Shown here one piece after another: positions 13,998 through 37,328 of a DNA stretch of 37,926 bases. Source of the DNA: Methanomassiliicoccales archaeon (GTDB lineage: Archaea > Thermoplasmatota > Thermoplasmata > Methanomassiliicoccales > UBA472); the NCBI GenBank assembly GCA_038740345.1, contig JAVYMA010000017.1, forward strand, positions 1 through 37,926, written 5' to 3'. Position 1 is the stretch's first letter, and the number at the start of each line of letters is the position of its first letter. The translations under genes and the position numbers were made by a program. Below the pieces are notes generated by a model. That model searched no databases and was not told the DNA's origin. It saw nothing but the letters and a program-made list of their open reading frames with translations.

Positions 13998-16900
13998 GTG
14001 ACTGCGATGATAAAGCAGGTCCAAGCGAATTACAATCCTGTAGAGCTAGAGAGAAAGGTGCGAGAATACTGGCAAAAAACTGATGCCTATCGCAAAACTA
14101 AAGAGCTGCGCTCATCTTGTCCGAATTTCTACTTTGTTGACGGACCACCTTATACTACAGGGGCTATACATTTAGGTACTTCATGGAATAAAACGCTCAA
14201 GGACACTTACATTCGTTTTAAAAGGATGCAGAGATTCAATGTCCGAGACCAACCAGGCTATGATATGCATGGTCTGCCTATTGAGGTAAAAGTAGAGCAA
14301 AGTATTGGTGTTAAGACAAAGAAGGAGATCGAAGCTTATGGTATAGATCGTTTCGTCTCTACATGCAAATCATTCGCCTTAGAGTTCCAAAAACGCATGA
14401 CGGAACAGTTCAAGGAGCTGGGCGTATGGATGGATTGGGATAATCCATACTTGACCATAACCAGTTCTTATATCGAGGCTGCATGGTGGACCCTTAAGCG
14501 AGCGTATGATAAAGGTCTTCTCGCGCCATCAAATAGGGTTTTATCTTGGTGCCCACGCTGCGAAACGGCTTTAGCTGAGGCAGAAATCGAATATAGGGAT
14601 GAGAAAGATCCTTCCATTTATGTACGATTTCCTTTGAAAGAGGAAGAGGGGACATACCTTCTCATCTGGACTACAACTCCATGGACCCTTCCCGCAAACC
14701 TTGCAGTTGCAGCCCACCCAGATTTTCGTTACGCTAAAGTGAGATACATCGGAGCTAATGGCAGTGAAATTGTAATCGTTCTCGAATCTTTAGTAGAGCA
14801 GATTGGAACAATGGGGGGGTACGATGGTTATGAAATTTTAGATCTCATAGAAGGCGATGATCTAATTGGCGTGGAGTACATCCCCCCTTTTTATAATGAT
14901 GTGGAATATCAACGCCAAATTACTGGGAAATGGGTCCATAAGGTAATTCCATCGAATACAGTTGCAGCTGAGAATACAGGCTTGGTTCACATCGCACCGG
15001 GTCATGGTCCCGAGGATTTCGAGATGGGAAAGGAGTTCGGGCTAGAACCTTTTTGCCCAGTGGATGAAAGTGGGCGTTTTACTAAGGAACTCCCTCCGAG
15101 ATATGCTGGAATGAGTGTAAAGGAAGCGAATAAGCAAATTATTGAGGAATTGAAGAATCGAAATCTCATCTACTCAGTCGGGACTATTGTTCATCGTTAT
15201 GGTCATTGTTGGCGCTGTGATTCTGGTATAATCTATCGTAACACTACTCAATGGTTTCTTAAAATAACACAGATCAAAAAATTGATGTTGGAGGAAATCG
15301 ACAAGATACATTGGGTTCCAGATTGGGCTGGGTCTTCTCGGGAATATGATTGGACCATGAACGCCCGAGATTGGTGTATATCGCGACAGCGTTACTGGGG
15401 TATACCTCTTCCCGTATGGACTTGTAAATGTGGAGAATCAAAAGTTATCGGCTCAATTTCTGAATTGGAGAAGGGCGAAGGTTTCCGCAAAGAGATGGAG
15501 TTACACCGGCCTTGGATAGATGCAATAACTTTCAAATGTGAAAGTTGTGGCGGCCAAATGAAAAGAGTGCCAGACGTGCTTGATGTCTGGTTCGATTCGG
15601 GTGTGGCTACGTGGGCACAGCTTGGGTTCCCTCGCAGCAGGGTTGAGTTCGACCGCTGGTGGCCTTGCAAATGGATAACAGAGGCTCACGACCAGACTAG
15701 AGGATGGTTTTATTCCCAGCTTGCTGCTGGATGCATTGCTTTTGATCGTGCCCCTTATGAGACAGTGTTAATGCATGGTTGGGTATTGGACCCTAATGGT
15801 CAGCCGATGTCTAAATCTCGAGGAAACGTCATAGAGCCAGAAAAAGTGATTAAGGACTATGGAGCTGATGCGTTGCGCTTCTATTTAATGCGTACTAATG
15901 CACCTTGGGAAGATATCTCATTTCAATGGGATGGGGTAAAGAATGCACGAAAGACGCTGAATATCCTTTGGAATGTCGTAAATTTCGCTACTACTTATAT
16001 GAGTATAGATGCTTTTGATCCCAAAGCAATAAGTTTTGATTCCGTAAATCATGCCCTTCGACCCGAAGATCGATGGATGATATCCCGTACAGAAAAAATG
16101 AAGAATGAAGTCGGAAAATATCTCAACTCTCTCGAATTGCACAAAGCCTGTCGGGTAATTGAGGATTTCATATTAGAGGATCTATCACGTTGGTACATCA
16201 GATTAATCCGCGATCGAACTTGGTCTGAAAAGGGGGATGCGGATAAACTAGCGGCATACAAGGTCCTTTATGAATCTTTGATGGATTTAACTAAAATACT
16301 GGCTCCATTTTGCCCCCATATCAGTGAAGAAATATACCAACATTTAGATGGTTCATTGGAAACAGTGCACATGTTAGATTGGCCTATCGCCGACACCACT
16401 AAGTTGGATGAGAGACTAGAACAGGGCATGGTAAAGATTCAGGAGCTTGTTGAGATTATTAATAAAGAAAGACAGACTCGCGGTATTAAATTGCGTTGGC
16501 CCCTGAAGAGAATAATCATTCGCGCATCCAATAGTGAAAATTTAGAACTAATGAAGCAATTAGAGCCAATAATCCGATCACAAGCTAATGTTAAAAAGAT
16601 AGAATACGTCCCACCAGGGCAGGAATGGTCAGAAATCATACTTATCGCTGAACCTAATCCCAACGCTATTGGTAAGGTCTATAGGCAGTGGAGTTCAAAG
16701 ATAGCTGTACTGTTAAAATCGCGACCTGCCAAACAGATCCGCGATTGTATTGAGAAAGGTTCCTACTCGCTTGGTATAGAAGGTCAAATGATTAAAATCG
16801 AACCAAATATGGTGAGTTTCAAAAGTGTTCTGCCATCTAACGTGGTGAGTGCGACCTTCAGTGGTGGAGAATTATACATTGATTTTGAGATTACACAAGA

Positions 16901-18191
16901 CATTGAGGCAGAAGGTTTCGCTAGGGAGCTGATCAGGCGTATCCAGCAGACACGAAAAGATATCAAGTTAGACGTAGAGGAATACATTAAAGCTGAGGTC
17001 CATGCCCCTGCCAAGTTAGTTGAATATTTCAAAATTTGGAAAGGCCATATAATGAACGAAACGCGATGCCGCCAAATGGAATTTGTAGATTCGGTCAAGG
17101 GAGATATTGTTACATCCTGGGAAATTGAAGGAGAGAAAATCCAAGTAGGTATCACCTCTCTTCATTTCAAGCAGGCTATAGAAGATCTTATGCAAATAAC
17201 TGGCCTATCACAGGAAGGGGCTTTAGCACTTGTAGAATCAGGATACCGGACACGGAATGATCTGAAACAGTTAAATGAAGATCAGCTTAACAATATCACA
17301 ACCCTGCCTAAGTCCGATGTTAAGAAGATCGTTCATTATTTTGAAAGGAAAGAAGCTCCGACACCAACCTCAACTATTGCATCAACAGAAACCATGACGA
17401 AGGCCGACCTTATTCCATATCTTTTACGTATACCCCGAATGAATGAAGTCAAAGCAGAACTACTCTATGAAACAGGATATAATACAATAGAAAAATTAAA
17501 AAATGCAACCAAAGAAGACTTGCGTAAAGTCAAGGGATTGGGAGAGAAAACTATCGAAGAAATATTATTTTATGCAAAATCGGGAGGATTTGATAAGACT
17601 ATAAATTGCATTAATTGTGGTGCCCCTGTTCCTCCGAATAAAATTACATGTGGGTCTTGTGGTAAGAAAGTGAACGTACAGACACATGCTGAAGAAGTAT
17701 CTGTTGAACCTTCCGAAATTTCAACCGCCTCGGATATCGAATTGGAAAAATCTTTCACATATCTCATAAAGGAAGAGAAGGCAGAACGCTCTTACCAGCT
17801 TTTCGAAAAAGCTTTGAGTAAAGGAATGAAGGGCTTTTGTGTTACGAGGAATTATCCACTAAAAATTAAATCTAAATATAATTTAGGAGACACTCCTATT
17901 CTTTGGCTGAGTAATGTCGGTAAAGAATCTAGCATTCGTCCAAAAGACTTAGAAAAATTATCGGTTTCCTTAGAGCAATTCCTAGCTCAGTCTGAAGGAG
18001 GAATTATTCTTCTTGATGGCTTAGAATATCTAATAACCAATAACAACTTCCTGACCGTCCTGAGATTAGTTCAATCGTTACGCGATCAGGTCGCTATCAA
18101 TCGCTCCATTCTCATGTTAGTTCTGAACCCCTCCACCTTGGACGCTCACGAGCTGAACCTGCTTGAGAAAGAGGTAGATGCCACCCTTTGA
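13998..18191 (+). CDS. ileS: Isoleucyl-tRNA synthetase with C-terminal HhH, zinc-ribbon and DUF835 modules
   Basis: Charges tRNA-Ile. Residues 1 to about 1055 (counted from GTG 13998) are a complete class Ia synthetase: HIGH-type HLGT at 58-61, an editing domain with the TTTPWTLPANL block, WCISRQRYWG, and KMSKS-type PMSKS at 603-607, then the anticodon-binding region. After this come two helix-hairpin-helix-like repeats (about 1064-1117 and 1138-1194, the second with KGLGEKT), a four-cysteine ribbon (C1204, C1207, C1218, C1221) and a full DUF835 domain (about 1250-1397, with WLSNVG and LLDGLEYLI). Ordinary IleRS ends near residue 1050. The frame is open throughout with no sign of frameshift. 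ATG 14007 is an alternative start; a CATATAAGG box just upstream and FEN1 precede it. Confidence 0.95.
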   Translation: MTAMIKQVQANYNPVELERKVREYWQKTDAYRKTKELRSSCPNFYFVDGPPYTTGAIHLGTSWNKTLKDTYIRFKRMQRFNVRDQPGYDMHGLPIEVKVEQSIGVKTKKEIEAYGIDRFVSTCKSFALEFQKRMTEQFKELGVWMDWDNPYLTITSSYIEAAWWTLKRAYDKGLLAPSNRVLSWCPRCETALAEAEIEYRDEKDPSIYVRFPLKEEEGTYLLIWTTTPWTLPANLAVAAHPDFRYAKVRYIGANGSEIVIVLESLVEQIGTMGGYDGYEILDLIEGDDLIGVEYIPPFYNDVEYQRQITGKWVHKVIPSNTVAAENTGLVHIAPGHGPEDFEMGKEFGLEPFCPVDESGRFTKELPPRYAGMSVKEANKQIIEELKNRNLIYSVGTIVHRYGHCWRCDSGIIYRNTTQWFLKITQIKKLMLEEIDKIHWVPDWAGSSREYDWTMNARDWCISRQRYWGIPLPVWTCKCGESKVIGSISELEKGEGFRKEMELHRPWIDAITFKCESCGGQMKRVPDVLDVWFDSGVATWAQLGFPRSRVEFDRWWPCKWITEAHDQTRGWFYSQLAAGCIAFDRAPYETVLMHGWVLDPNGQPMSKSRGNVIEPEKVIKDYGADALRFYLMRTNAPWEDISFQWDGVKNARKTLNILWNVVNFATTYMSIDAFDPKAISFDSVNHALRPEDRWMISRTEKMKNEVGKYLNSLELHKACRVIEDFILEDLSRWYIRLIRDRTWSEKGDADKLAAYKVLYESLMDLTKILAPFCPHISEEIYQHLDGSLETVHMLDWPIADTTKLDERLEQGMVKIQELVEIINKERQTRGIKLRWPLKRIIIRASNSENLELMKQLEPIIRSQANVKKIEYVPPGQEWSEIILIAEPNPNAIGKVYRQWSSKIAVLLKSRPAKQIRDCIEKGSYSLGIEGQMIKIEPNMVSFKSVLPSNVVSATFSGGELYIDFEITQDIEAEGFARELIRRIQQTRKDIKLDVEEYIKAEVHAPAKLVEYFKIWKGHIMNETRCRQMEFVDSVKGDIVTSWEIEGEKIQVGITSLHFKQAIEDLMQITGLSQEGALALVESGYRTRNDLKQLNEDQLNNITTLPKSDVKKIVHYFERKEAPTPTSTIASTETMTKADLIPYLLRIPRMNEVKAELLYETGYNTIEKLKNATKEDLRKVKGLGEKTIEEILFYAKSGGFDKTINCINCGAPVPPNKITCGSCGKKVNVQTHAEEVSVEPSEISTASDIELEKSFTYLIKEEKAERSYQLFEKALSKGMKGFCVTRNYPLKIKSKYNLGDTPILWLSNVGKESSIRPKDLEKLSVSLEQFLAQSEGGIILLDGLEYLITNNNFLTVLRLVQSLRDQVAINRSILMLVLNPSTLDAHELNLLEKEVDATL

Positions 18192-18971
18192 TCACAGACC
18201 TAATGATCGCAGAACTCTCAAAAATCCAGGGACTGTTACATGTTCGTCAACACTCGAAGGGTCTATCCACTTGTACTCACTGTGCTCCCAATCAATCCTT
18301 ATTTTTTCCGTTGGACATGCCATTAAAAAGGCATGAACCGTCCATGCCATATCCCCTTGTCTAACTGTCAAGGGTGGAGCTTGGTGGAGAACAGTACAAT
18401 CCTTAACCGCCGTCTCCTCCTCCACTTCCTTTATTGCCCTCTCCAAGGGCTTCTCTCCTTTCTCGAGGTAACCACTAACTCCCGCCCACATATTCTGGCA
18501 AGATGATACCTTATCGCTTCTCTTAAGCGCGAGGATGCGGCCTTTATGCATCAGCACTGCCGTTACCACATCGCTTTGCCTCACAGCGGGTAATTCTATT
18601 ATTCCATTATCACCATCTACTTTTGCCACATCACCGCTCTTCAATAACGAAATATCGATTGAATCTACCATGGGAATGCCAGCCATCACGGCCCCCGTTG
18701 CCACAATGGTCTCAGCGCTTCGATTTATAATCGCTGCAGGAAGATTCCTTTCTCTCTTCAATTGTAAAATCGTATACGAGCCTACAGTACTACCTTTCCC
18801 TCGATTAAAGGCAAATACCCTGCCTCTAATATTTTGCCCTTCGAGCGTTGTTGCATTTGTTAAAATGCCTGTTTTTGGATTCACACCCCCTAAAAAGCTA
18901 AAATCGGATTCTAGAAGAAGTACTTCTCCTTCTGCCTTACCTCGAGAGATACTCCTTCCCCTGATAATCAT
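18192..18971 (-). CDS. Phosphomevalonate dehydratase small subunit fused to a Nudix domain
   Basis: Residues 1 to about 130 are the AcnX swivel (DUF126) subunit of mevalonate 5-phosphate dehydratase in the archaeal mevalonate pathway, including GKGSTVGSY with the conserved serine (S62). Residues about 133-259 are a Nudix hydrolase domain: the Nudix box spans G167-V189 and keeps catalytic E182, E185 and E186, with K181 and A188 replacing the usual Arg and Gly. The normal subunit is about 130 residues, so this is a fusion. The start at 18971 overlaps the large-subunit stop by 4 bases; the frame opens further to 19046 but that would intrude into the large subunit. The Nudix substrate is unknown. 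Confidence 0.9.
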   Translation of the reverse strand: MIIRGRSISRGKAEGEVLLLESDFSFLGGVNPKTGILTNATTLEGQNIRGRVFAFNRGKGSTVGSYTILQLKRERNLPAAIINRSAETIVATGAVMAGIPMVDSIDISLLKSGDVAKVDGDNGIIELPAVRQSDVVTAVLMHKGRILALKRSDKVSSCQNMWAGVSGYLEKGEKPLERAIKEVEEETAVKDCTVLHQAPPLTVRQGDMAWTVHAFLMACPTEKIRIDWEHSEYKWIDPSSVDEHVTVPGFLRVLRSLGL

Positions 18972-20140
18972 AAAATCAACCTCATCAATTCTTTTGTTGA
19001 AGCAAAAATTACTTTCTGAGAGCATAGTGACGGAAGGTAGACGCAAGCTTTAGTCGAATTAGTGGCAGTACATGCATATTTTTTCTCTATTGGCGTCACT
19101 ACCATGCATGTATCGCAAACGACTTTGCCGAATTTTTCCAAAATTGACACTTCCTTAAGACAACGAGCCTTGATTTCTCGAGAAGTGCAAAACCATACCT
19201 CAGGTTTGTCTCGAACAGGTCGTTTACCGTCCAAGAATGATGCTAAAGTTCTCAATTCCGCTTGAGAAAGATGAGGGCAGCCCAAGGCCACGAGGTCCGG
19301 CTCTTTTCCTGTGTTAATGGAATCGCAAGCTCGTTTTAAATCATCTTTTCCTAAACTAATGCGTTCAAGGCCATTAATCTCTTGTTTCTGATAATCTGGA
19401 GTGACGCCTTCTACGTAAAACATTGCAATGGACCCGGAGGCTGCCATGGCAGCGGCTATGGATTTCAGGCCATCGGGATCCGGTCTTATGCCTTTAAAAT
19501 ATGGAATTGCTGAGCCAAATGTCTTTCCTACGATGTACCCAAGTAAGGAAAGTTCAGATGAATCTTTCAACGATTCTGACTCTATCACGACTGTTGGCTT
19601 TCTATTCTCTTCTAAGTGCAGGCCATAAAGAGGAGTTTTTCCAACTATGGCAGCCGCTAGAGCTCCAGGGCCCCCTTCTCTATTGGTTCGAGCCCCCAAC
19701 ACAGCATTAACATATGAAATCGCTGATGACTCTGCCCAGGCTACCGTGTCGCCTTGCATTGGGGAGTTGCCAAGCAAATAAGGCGTGCAGCTGCAAATGG
19801 TACGAACACCCATTCTTTCATAGGCTTTGATTATTGTTTTCTGTTTTTGAGCGAAATCCTCATCCACCCCCATGTCTTTCCATCTTTCTAAATCCATTCC
19901 AGCAGGATTGAGCGTGGTAGGTACGGCTACCTTAGAATCGATTGACATTTCTTCTAAGAAGTCAACCCCCCCTTCACCGATAGTTTTGAAAGAAACTCCA
20001 GAAATATGAGCTGAGGATATTGGGACTAGGCGTTCAGCTTCATAAATACGCCCCAAAGCTACGAGAATCTCCATGGCCCTTTGGAACCCCAAGCCCTTTT
20101 CCCCTGCTAAGGCTCGCTCCTCTTCCTGGGTAAGGTGCAT
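18968..20140 (-). CDS. Phosphomevalonate dehydratase large subunit (aconitase X)
   Basis: Catalytic subunit that dehydrates mevalonate 5-phosphate to anhydromevalonate phosphate, feeding isoprenoid lipid synthesis by the archaeal route. It has 390 residues, the family norm. Visible iron-sulfur ligand candidates are in CSCTPY (C116, C118), CPH (near 290) and CDTC (near 351). Other AcnX blocks are the N-terminal LTQEEE, NPAGMD and GARTNREGGP. It overlaps the small-subunit start by ATGA and is clearly translationally coupled. The next pathway enzymes (UbiD-like decarboxylase, isopentenyl phosphate kinase) are not in the window. Confidence 0.93.
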   Translation of the reverse strand: MHLTQEEERALAGEKGLGFQRAMEILVALGRIYEAERLVPISSAHISGVSFKTIGEGGVDFLEEMSIDSKVAVPTTLNPAGMDLERWKDMGVDEDFAQKQKTIIKAYERMGVRTICSCTPYLLGNSPMQGDTVAWAESSAISYVNAVLGARTNREGGPGALAAAIVGKTPLYGLHLEENRKPTVVIESESLKDSSELSLLGYIVGKTFGSAIPYFKGIRPDPDGLKSIAAAMAASGSIAMFYVEGVTPDYQKQEINGLERISLGKDDLKRACDSINTGKEPDLVALGCPHLSQAELRTLASFLDGKRPVRDKPEVWFCTSREIKARCLKEVSILEKFGKVVCDTCMVVTPIEKKYACTATNSTKACVYLPSLCSQKVIFASTKELMRLIL

Positions 20141-36833: not shown

Positions 36834-37328
36834 ATGAGAATTGAAGAAGGTAAGTTATATTTGTTTAAAGAGAGAGTCCCTTTGCGCACACATCAGATAA
36901 TGAGAAAAGAACTTTATAAAGGAAGGGAAACACTTTACATCTCCAAAAATTCACCAAGCCAAGTTGGAATGCAATTCGATTTTGACTCCTGTAAATTAAT
37001 GACACTGTGGCTAAGTCCAAGACCAGAAAGAAATTGCGTTCCACCAATGAACATCAAAATCCTTGAAAAAAAAGTCTTCGAATTCATTGATTCGAGTCCC
37101 AAAGGTATAGTTGCATTAAACGGAGTGGAAATATTAGAAATGTGGAATGGATTTAGGGCGGTTCTAGATTTTTTAAAAAAGTCAAAAGGTCACATAGTTT
37201 GTAATGATAATAATATATTTATCTCTCTGGATCCCAAGAACATTAGTCAAAGGAATTTGGTAGAAGTAGAAAAACTCTCTGATATTGTAATAGGTAGTAA
37301 TAACGAGGAAGCCTCAATATCCTTTTAA
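36834..37328 (+). CDS. Stand-alone DUF835 domain protein
   Basis: A 164-residue protein whose whole length matches the DUF835 pattern seen at the C-terminus of IleRS in this same window: an early strand with a positively charged helix, TLYISKNSP, LMTLWLSPRPERN, then GIVALNGVEILEMWNGF in place of the usual LLDGLEYLI, then a late strand with SLDPKNISQRNLVEVEK. The central LDGLE motif is altered (ALNGVE), so it may be a diverged paralogue. Function is unknown in all members; they are frequent in Thermoplasmatota and often attached to sensor domains. An eIF2B-family gene follows after 23 bases and is probably co-transcribed. Confidence 0.85.
   Translation: MRIEEGKLYLFKERVPLRTHQIMRKELYKGRETLYISKNSPSQVGMQFDFDSCKLMTLWLSPRPERNCVPPMNIKILEKKVFEFIDSSPKGIVALNGVEILEMWNGFRAVLDFLKKSKGHIVCNDNNIFISLDPKNISQRNLVEVEKLSDIVIGSNNEEASISF

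Follow-up and report, generated by a model that had tools for sequence, protein, structure and literature searches.

The window analysed here, i.e. the whole 37,926-nucleotide stretch of contig JAVYMA010000017.1 (assembly GCA_038740345.1), comes from an archaeon whose order, judged by its named close relatives, is the Methanomassiliicoccales. Its forward strand carries an ileS gene (13998-18191) whose frame of 1397 codons opens at a GTG at position 13998 and runs without interruption to position 18191 in the ORF map. The encoded isoleucyl-tRNA synthetase (IleRS) comprises a class I catalytic domain with its CP1 editing domain (tRNA-synt_1, 14061-15899, Pfam E-value 2.8e-129), an anticodon-binding domain (Anticodon_1, 16068-16514, E-value 3.8e-35) and a DUF5915 domain (16569-17156, E-value 7.1e-23), the latter being matched by Foldseek to the tRNA-binding region that type 2 IleRS structures have at their C-terminus. 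Four motifs read as intact, namely the HIGH-type GPPYTTGAIHLGT, WTTTPWT of the CP1 editing domain, WCISRQR and the KMSKS-type MSKS (15807-15818), and the whole protein scores 986 bits with TIGR00392, for a curated cut-off of 621. The window protein thus has the catalytic, editing and anticodon regions as well as DUF5915 complete, as in archaeal-type IleRS. Since the motifs are intact and since this protein is the only IleRS retrieved from the genome (99% complete) when queried with both IleRS types, it would be the sole isoleucine-charging enzyme of the organism.

The IleRS part, including DUF5915, ends at about position 17157, and the same frame continues with an additional tail of about 340 residues. 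This tail starts with two helix-hairpin-helix (HhH) domains (HHH_5, E-value 6.1e-17 over two stretches), of which the first (HhH1, 17181-17333) is the weaker, with 24.1 bits for a cut-off of 27 and thus below the Pfam cut-off in the genome search, while the second (HhH2, 17418-17579) exceeds it with 49 bits; both are modelled as helical domains. They are followed by a CINC...CGSC ribbon (CxxC...CxxC, 17607-17672), which matches Pfam at 16.5-17 bits for cut-offs of 25-27, with four visible cysteines that are common to several relatives and absent in several others. Finally, a DUF835 domain (17775-18173) is recognized with 117.7 bits (E-value 4.2e-34), compared to a gathering cut-off of 33.1. 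The initial annotation, made from the letters alone, had described this frame as a complete IleRS continued over about 340 residues by two HhH-like repeats, a four-cysteine ribbon and DUF835, with no sign of a frameshift. Pfam, TIGR00392, the motifs and the uninterrupted ORF bear out this description, and the same-genus genome G002 has the fusion in the same frame, without a stop, at 71% identity.

AlphaFold2 modelling of DUF5915 together with the tail gave a mean pLDDT of 84.9 and a pTM of 0.40, the relative placement of the domains being uncertain. Foldseek aligned the first part of this model with type 2 IleRS structures, at their C-terminal region, and its tail part with RadA/Rad51 and FlaH/KaiC-like proteins. 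When modelled alone, DUF835 reached a pLDDT of 94.9 and a pTM of 0.90, and its top solved match was FlaH (4yds; E-value 1.5e-5, TM-score by query 0.71); a RecA-superfamily ATPase came next, and then many KaiC structures. The Walker A signature GK[ST] is missing from all 29 rows of aligned IleRS DUF835 domains, and a hydrophobic-DG[LI]EYL stretch is kept at the expected place of Walker B in 27 of them. The structural modelling suggested by the initial annotation hence yields helical HhH domains and a DUF835 of the window that is confidently predicted to adopt a KaiC/FlaH (RecA-like) fold devoid of a P-loop. Because of this missing P-loop, the domain would probably serve partner docking rather than ATP hydrolysis. 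The tail thus ends in a domain resembling an inactive clock protein, and the missing Walker A motif also agrees with the literature, where the DUF835 of archaeal signalling proteins is classed as inactivated KaiC, or iKaiC (PMC5847659): the window DUF835 shares fold and family score with iKaiC and with the FlaH/KaiC ATPases, and its P-loop is absent as in iKaiC.

Known hosts of DUF835 are REC, PAS, V4R and membrane proteins, whereas the host is here an aminoacyl-tRNA synthetase. Elsewhere in the window genome, DUF835 is carried by a REC-DUF835 protein, a V4R-DUF835 protein, two membrane-like proteins and a DnaA-like ATPase, which fits the initial remark that this domain usually sits on sensory or membrane proteins. 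A role of DUF835 in signal transduction can be suggested only by association with these REC, V4R and membrane proteins. The DnaA-like protein (L007, G000:C2:1-1830) combines a DnaA-type ATPase domain (PF00308, E-value 2e-59) and a zinc-ribbon-like stretch with DUF835; DnaA domains of the bacterial type are unusual for an archaeon. Besides, the window contig encodes a second, nearly stand-alone DUF835 protein of about 166 residues (36897-37259).

In 19 of the 22 genomes of the window's family, one match covers both the C-terminus of the IleRS and the tail; the remaining three are contig ends or incomplete, fragmentary assemblies. When one genome per species was scanned for the tail across 84,980 prokaryotic species, 63 loci were obtained; core and DUF835 share one frame in 55 of the loci fetched, most of the other eight are contig ends or broken frames, and all named records belong to Thermoplasmata, Methanomassiliicoccales or unplaced Euryarchaeota. 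Genome searches likewise showed that many families of Thermoplasmata possess the fusion, and the tailed IleRS is an architecture of this class as a whole. The C-terminal extension which the initial annotation proposed to look for in IleRS homologues thus recurs across many families, and the separate adjacent genes that it had considered as a sign of an assembly error are not what relatives show, the fusion being in one frame across the family. A phylum-wide search for the tail found nothing outside the class, which is weak evidence of absence given that some members known from the class likewise escaped its threshold and pre-filter. In the light of this distribution, there is a negligible probability that misassembly or a frameshift created the fusion in this metagenome-assembled genome: a few relatives do have broken frames (G028, G030, L111, L122), but the fusion is intact in dozens of independent assemblies, including the single-contig genomes G010, G201 and G208, and the G002 frame together with the 19 family genomes rules the artefact out. 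Tailed IleRS frames broken by stops or shifts, be they real or due to sequencing errors, were seen in some metagenome assemblies (L122, L255, L084 and L111). Pyrrolysine read-through was rejected as the cause of such broken relatives, the stop of L107 being a TGA beside masked bases and that of L111 a TAA, not a TAG.

Within this architecture, DUF835 occupies the extreme C-terminus in nearly all tailed IleRS, except in G151 (L203), where about 250 residues with a C2H2 match lie beyond it. The central part of the tail varies: HhH domains went undetected in families f10 and f13 and in genus g26, and other tails have one or two HhH, with ribbons present or not. In family f16, the tailed IleRS-like proteins of L153 and L307 have several HhH-ribbon units in frames of 2429-2450 residues or more, with at least four units and at least 2450 residues for L153. 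In addition, the tail is missing in most of family f6, in the f5 members G031, G034 and G037 and in f25, where these tail-less members of the otherwise tailed type ('B-type' hereafter) are cut after or within DUF5915. Such losses indicate that the tail is dispensable in some lineages.

Many Thermoplasmata genomes carry a second, tail-less IleRS of about 1040 residues ('A-type'). This A-type is of the IleRS2 type, and an IleRS2-type protein is therefore the partner gene in Thermoplasmata with two IleRSs. IleRS2, which is eukaryote-like and mupirocin-resistant (8c9d, PMC10485003), is also the closest solved structure to the window protein, including its C-terminal tRNA-binding region. The A-type proteins are 37-49% identical to the IleRS2 of Priestia (P. 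megaterium), the intact ones from two-gene genomes being mostly at 42-49%, compared to about 33-38% for the active B-type proteins, and the eukaryote-like YPFE signature occurs in 37 of 50 A-type and in 2 of 70 B-type proteins. With about 37% identity, no YPFE and a tail, the window IleRS is not of the IleRS2 subtype. In an unrooted tree built without outgroup, the B-type forms one clade apart from the A-type; this tree supports the separation only, the clade of all dead B-type proteins being weakly supported and possibly affected by long branches.

Both genes could be read in 37 genomes, which are related and hence not independent, and in 37/37 the KMSKS motif is intact in exactly one of the two IleRSs, none having both or neither intact. 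It is intact in A and lost in the tailed B in 24 genomes, and intact in B and lost in A in the other 13, which all belong to family f8, the only exception to the loss of KMSKS in the tailed IleRS of two-IleRS genomes. By family, B is dead in f9, f11, f16, f18, f21, f29, f30 and f32 and A is dead in f8, whereas single-gene families have only B (f1-f5) or only A (f22 and f14); catalytic death is what we infer here from the loss of motifs. The tail-less IleRS2-type proteins of f8 (e.g. L252, L294 and L303) have lost KMSKS and have an altered WTTTPWT, and remain under purifying selection, with a dN/dS of about 0.10-0.17. One could explain this pattern by a heteromeric IleRS in which the two proteins form a complex, with catalysis in one partner and a structural role in the other; each could then lose catalysis, but neither would be lost quickly. 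The perfect reciprocity in both directions, including the selected though dead f8 proteins, is in agreement with such a complex, but the single-gene families demonstrate that neither gene is obligatory, and the dead proteins of f18 have no recognizable catalytic domain, which makes this explanation quite improbable.

The extent of decay differs between the dead tailed proteins. In f9, f11 and f32, HIGH and the editing motif are gone too, parts of HIGH remain in f29 and in some f16 members, and the f18 and f30 proteins, of about 930-1017 residues, have no recognizable catalytic domain at all. In the f18 protein that was tested, Anticodon_1, DUF5915, the zinc ribbon and DUF835 pass the Pfam cut-offs and HHH_5 falls just below, while profile comparison of its N-terminal 430 residues with the catalytic domain gives a probability of 1.5%. 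Next to the f18 genes lie aconitase X genes whose orientation is that seen in the window, where a swivel domain fused to NUDIX (18192-19046) and the catalytic (large) subunit (18968-20140) are encoded on the reverse strand, and this common gene-order marker supports the orthology of the f18 dead proteins with the window IleRS. The f9 dead proteins have lost DUF835 (G149, G172) or nearly so, and keep DUF5915 (79%) and three HhH domains; no DUF835 match was obtained in the f30 dead proteins. Given these two families, DUF835 cannot be the only selected part of the dead proteins. As to gene neighbourhoods, a ketopantoate reductase gene (panE), read in the same direction, follows the dead tailed IleRS at 6/6 f11 loci examined (L203, L207, L215, L217, L246 and L247), and a gene resembling AsnRS/AspRS lies next to that of the dead tailed protein in f18, in f30 and in a single f11 genome (L311, L239, L313 and L203). 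The neighbourhood analysis, which included the window, found no signalling partner.

Among the active B-type proteins of the window's order, the mean identity is 75% both in the catalytic N-terminal part and in DUF835, and in f8 it amounts to 81% and 91%, respectively. Between the window and G002, dN is lowest in DUF835 (0.045, compared to 0.092 in the catalytic part). DUF835 is also the best-kept segment of the dead B-type proteins in f11 (60% vs 44%), f16/f26 (77% vs 54%) and f29 (98% vs 88%), the exceptions being f9, where it is lost or nearly so, and f18, where it is more diverged. Of the positions that are invariant in active B-type proteins, the dead f11 proteins keep the largest share in DUF835 (78%), followed by DUF5915 (62%) and the anticodon domain (53%), and the smallest in the catalytic domain (38%) and CP1 (35%). 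More generally, most dead tailed proteins keep the anticodon domain, DUF5915 and DUF835 better than the catalytic part. Since synonymous sites are saturated in most pairs, dN/dS was taken from the measurable pairs only, in which it is 0.01-0.18 outside the HhH-linker region and 0.01-0.09 in DUF835. The HhH sequence is poorly conserved and offers, for this reason, no argument for a specific RNA contact. These data bear on the idea of a passenger fusion, in which DUF835 would have been captured by a chance read-through and would have no function on the IleRS. The several tail losses without obvious consequence would be in line with it; nevertheless, a domain that is conserved like an active site across the class, that displays such low dN/dS values and that persists on dead synthetases is very improbably a passenger.

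In view of its class-wide conservation, of a DUF835 conserved to about the same degree as the catalytic core and of its persistence on motif-less relatives, a functional tail is well supported at the sequence level. Moreover, as the tail and the tRNA-contacting domains outlive catalysis, its job seems independent of tRNA charging. The initial annotation had proposed that the tail could provide a regulatory, localising or tRNA-capture function: the functional part of this proposal holds, whereas the evidence singles out none of the three roles. The reading that we tentatively favour, with a chance put somewhat below one half, is that the B-type tail is a module for docking or sensing which is bound to tRNA-Ile and feeds into KaiC-type signalling, thereby fulfilling a second role without aminoacylation. 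It builds on what is observed, namely the architecture, the predicted fold, the conservation and the reciprocal loss of the catalytic motif, and it adds steps that we infer, namely that the tail binds tRNA, that it docks partners and that a signal is passed on. More precisely, the HhH domains and Cys ribbons of the tail would probably bind RNA; the anticodon domain, DUF5915 and the HhH (with the ribbon) would hold tRNA-Ile, and the P-loop-less DUF835 would dock this complex to the KaiC/DUF835 network through which these archaea signal. The same chain would also charge the tRNA in the window lineage, while in lineages in which IleRS2 took over charging, the B-type would have lost catalysis and been kept for its second role.

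The main rival sees in the tail a tRNA-capture appendage, in which HhH and ribbon raise the affinity for tRNA-Ile, DUF835 only oligomerises and no signalling takes place; the tail would act in cis in the window, whereas a dead tailed protein would serve IleRS2 in trans by chaperoning its tRNA. Binding of nucleic acids is common among HhH domains and ribbons, the dead proteins retain the anticodon and DUF5915 parts, HhH-ribbon units expand to four or more in L153, and the f9 dead proteins keep HhH while losing DUF835, all of which would be expected from such an appendage. Against this, the best-conserved part of the tail is in most lineages DUF835 and not HhH, HhH is lost in f13 and f10 while DUF835 stays, and the DUF835 family is otherwise found on sensor and response-regulator proteins, both in the window genome and according to PMC5847659. 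Altogether, tRNA capture appears somewhat unlikely. Within the docking or sensing reading, a bolder version would be an amino-acid-starvation sensor, in which the tailed IleRS and its dead descendants bind tRNA-Ile and relay its charging state, via the inactive KaiC-like domain, to archaeal KaiC signalling, in a Gcn2-like manner that evolved independently; this version is to be regarded as rather unlikely. The f9 and f8 exceptions fit the tRNA-capture and two-protein explanations better than the sensor reading, and the retention in f8 of a dead synthetase without tail counts, like the tail losses in some lineages, against the docking or sensing reading.

Domain additions to synthetases are known, and so are regulators that derive from synthetases. 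In eukaryotes, Gcn2 is a pseudo-HisRS fused to a kinase, whose dead HisRS domain senses uncharged tRNA, and the logic of the dead but kept B-type proteins can be likened to it. Unlike in Gcn2, the synthetase domain of the window protein is intact by motif, being dead by motif in 24 paired relatives, and no protein kinase is fused to it, the output-like domain being DUF835. Another dead synthetase scaffold kept for regulation is HisZ, a HisRS paralogue regulating HisG (PMC9437257). The dead tailed B-type proteins can be compared with both, although the tail is here an inactive KaiC-like domain and not a kinase or an enzyme subunit. SbzA, an IleRS homologue that transfers Ile in secondary metabolism (PMC9437257), is, like them, derived from an IleRS and has a role outside translation, but differs in reaction and context, and no pattern of reciprocal loss is known for it. 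For IleRS, IleRS2 and SbzA are the only cases named in a review on duplicated synthetases (PMC9437257). The solved IleRSs that were matched have no HhH, ribbon or DUF835, whereas the window protein carries all three, and no mention of these domains on an IleRS was found in the papers retrieved. Likewise, the open-access literature searched holds no description of an IleRS-DUF835 fusion, a passing mention in a survey of KaiC-like ATPases or in domain databases being possible. What was not found described in this literature is thus a class-conserved fusion of a synthetase with a KaiC-type domain, and dead IleRS descendants that keep the tail. A recent IleRS phylogeny discarded sequences without a catalytic motif (PMC10485003), which is one way in which such dead proteins stay unseen.

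These data imply that genes annotated as 'isoleucine--tRNA ligase' in the class Thermoplasmata can be catalytically dead. The 37/37 reciprocity constitutes a natural experiment that separates charging from the function of the tail, and it opens the role of archaeal DUF835 to direct tests. Finally, if the starvation-sensor version were true, the sensor would, in the lineage of the window, still be the working enzyme.
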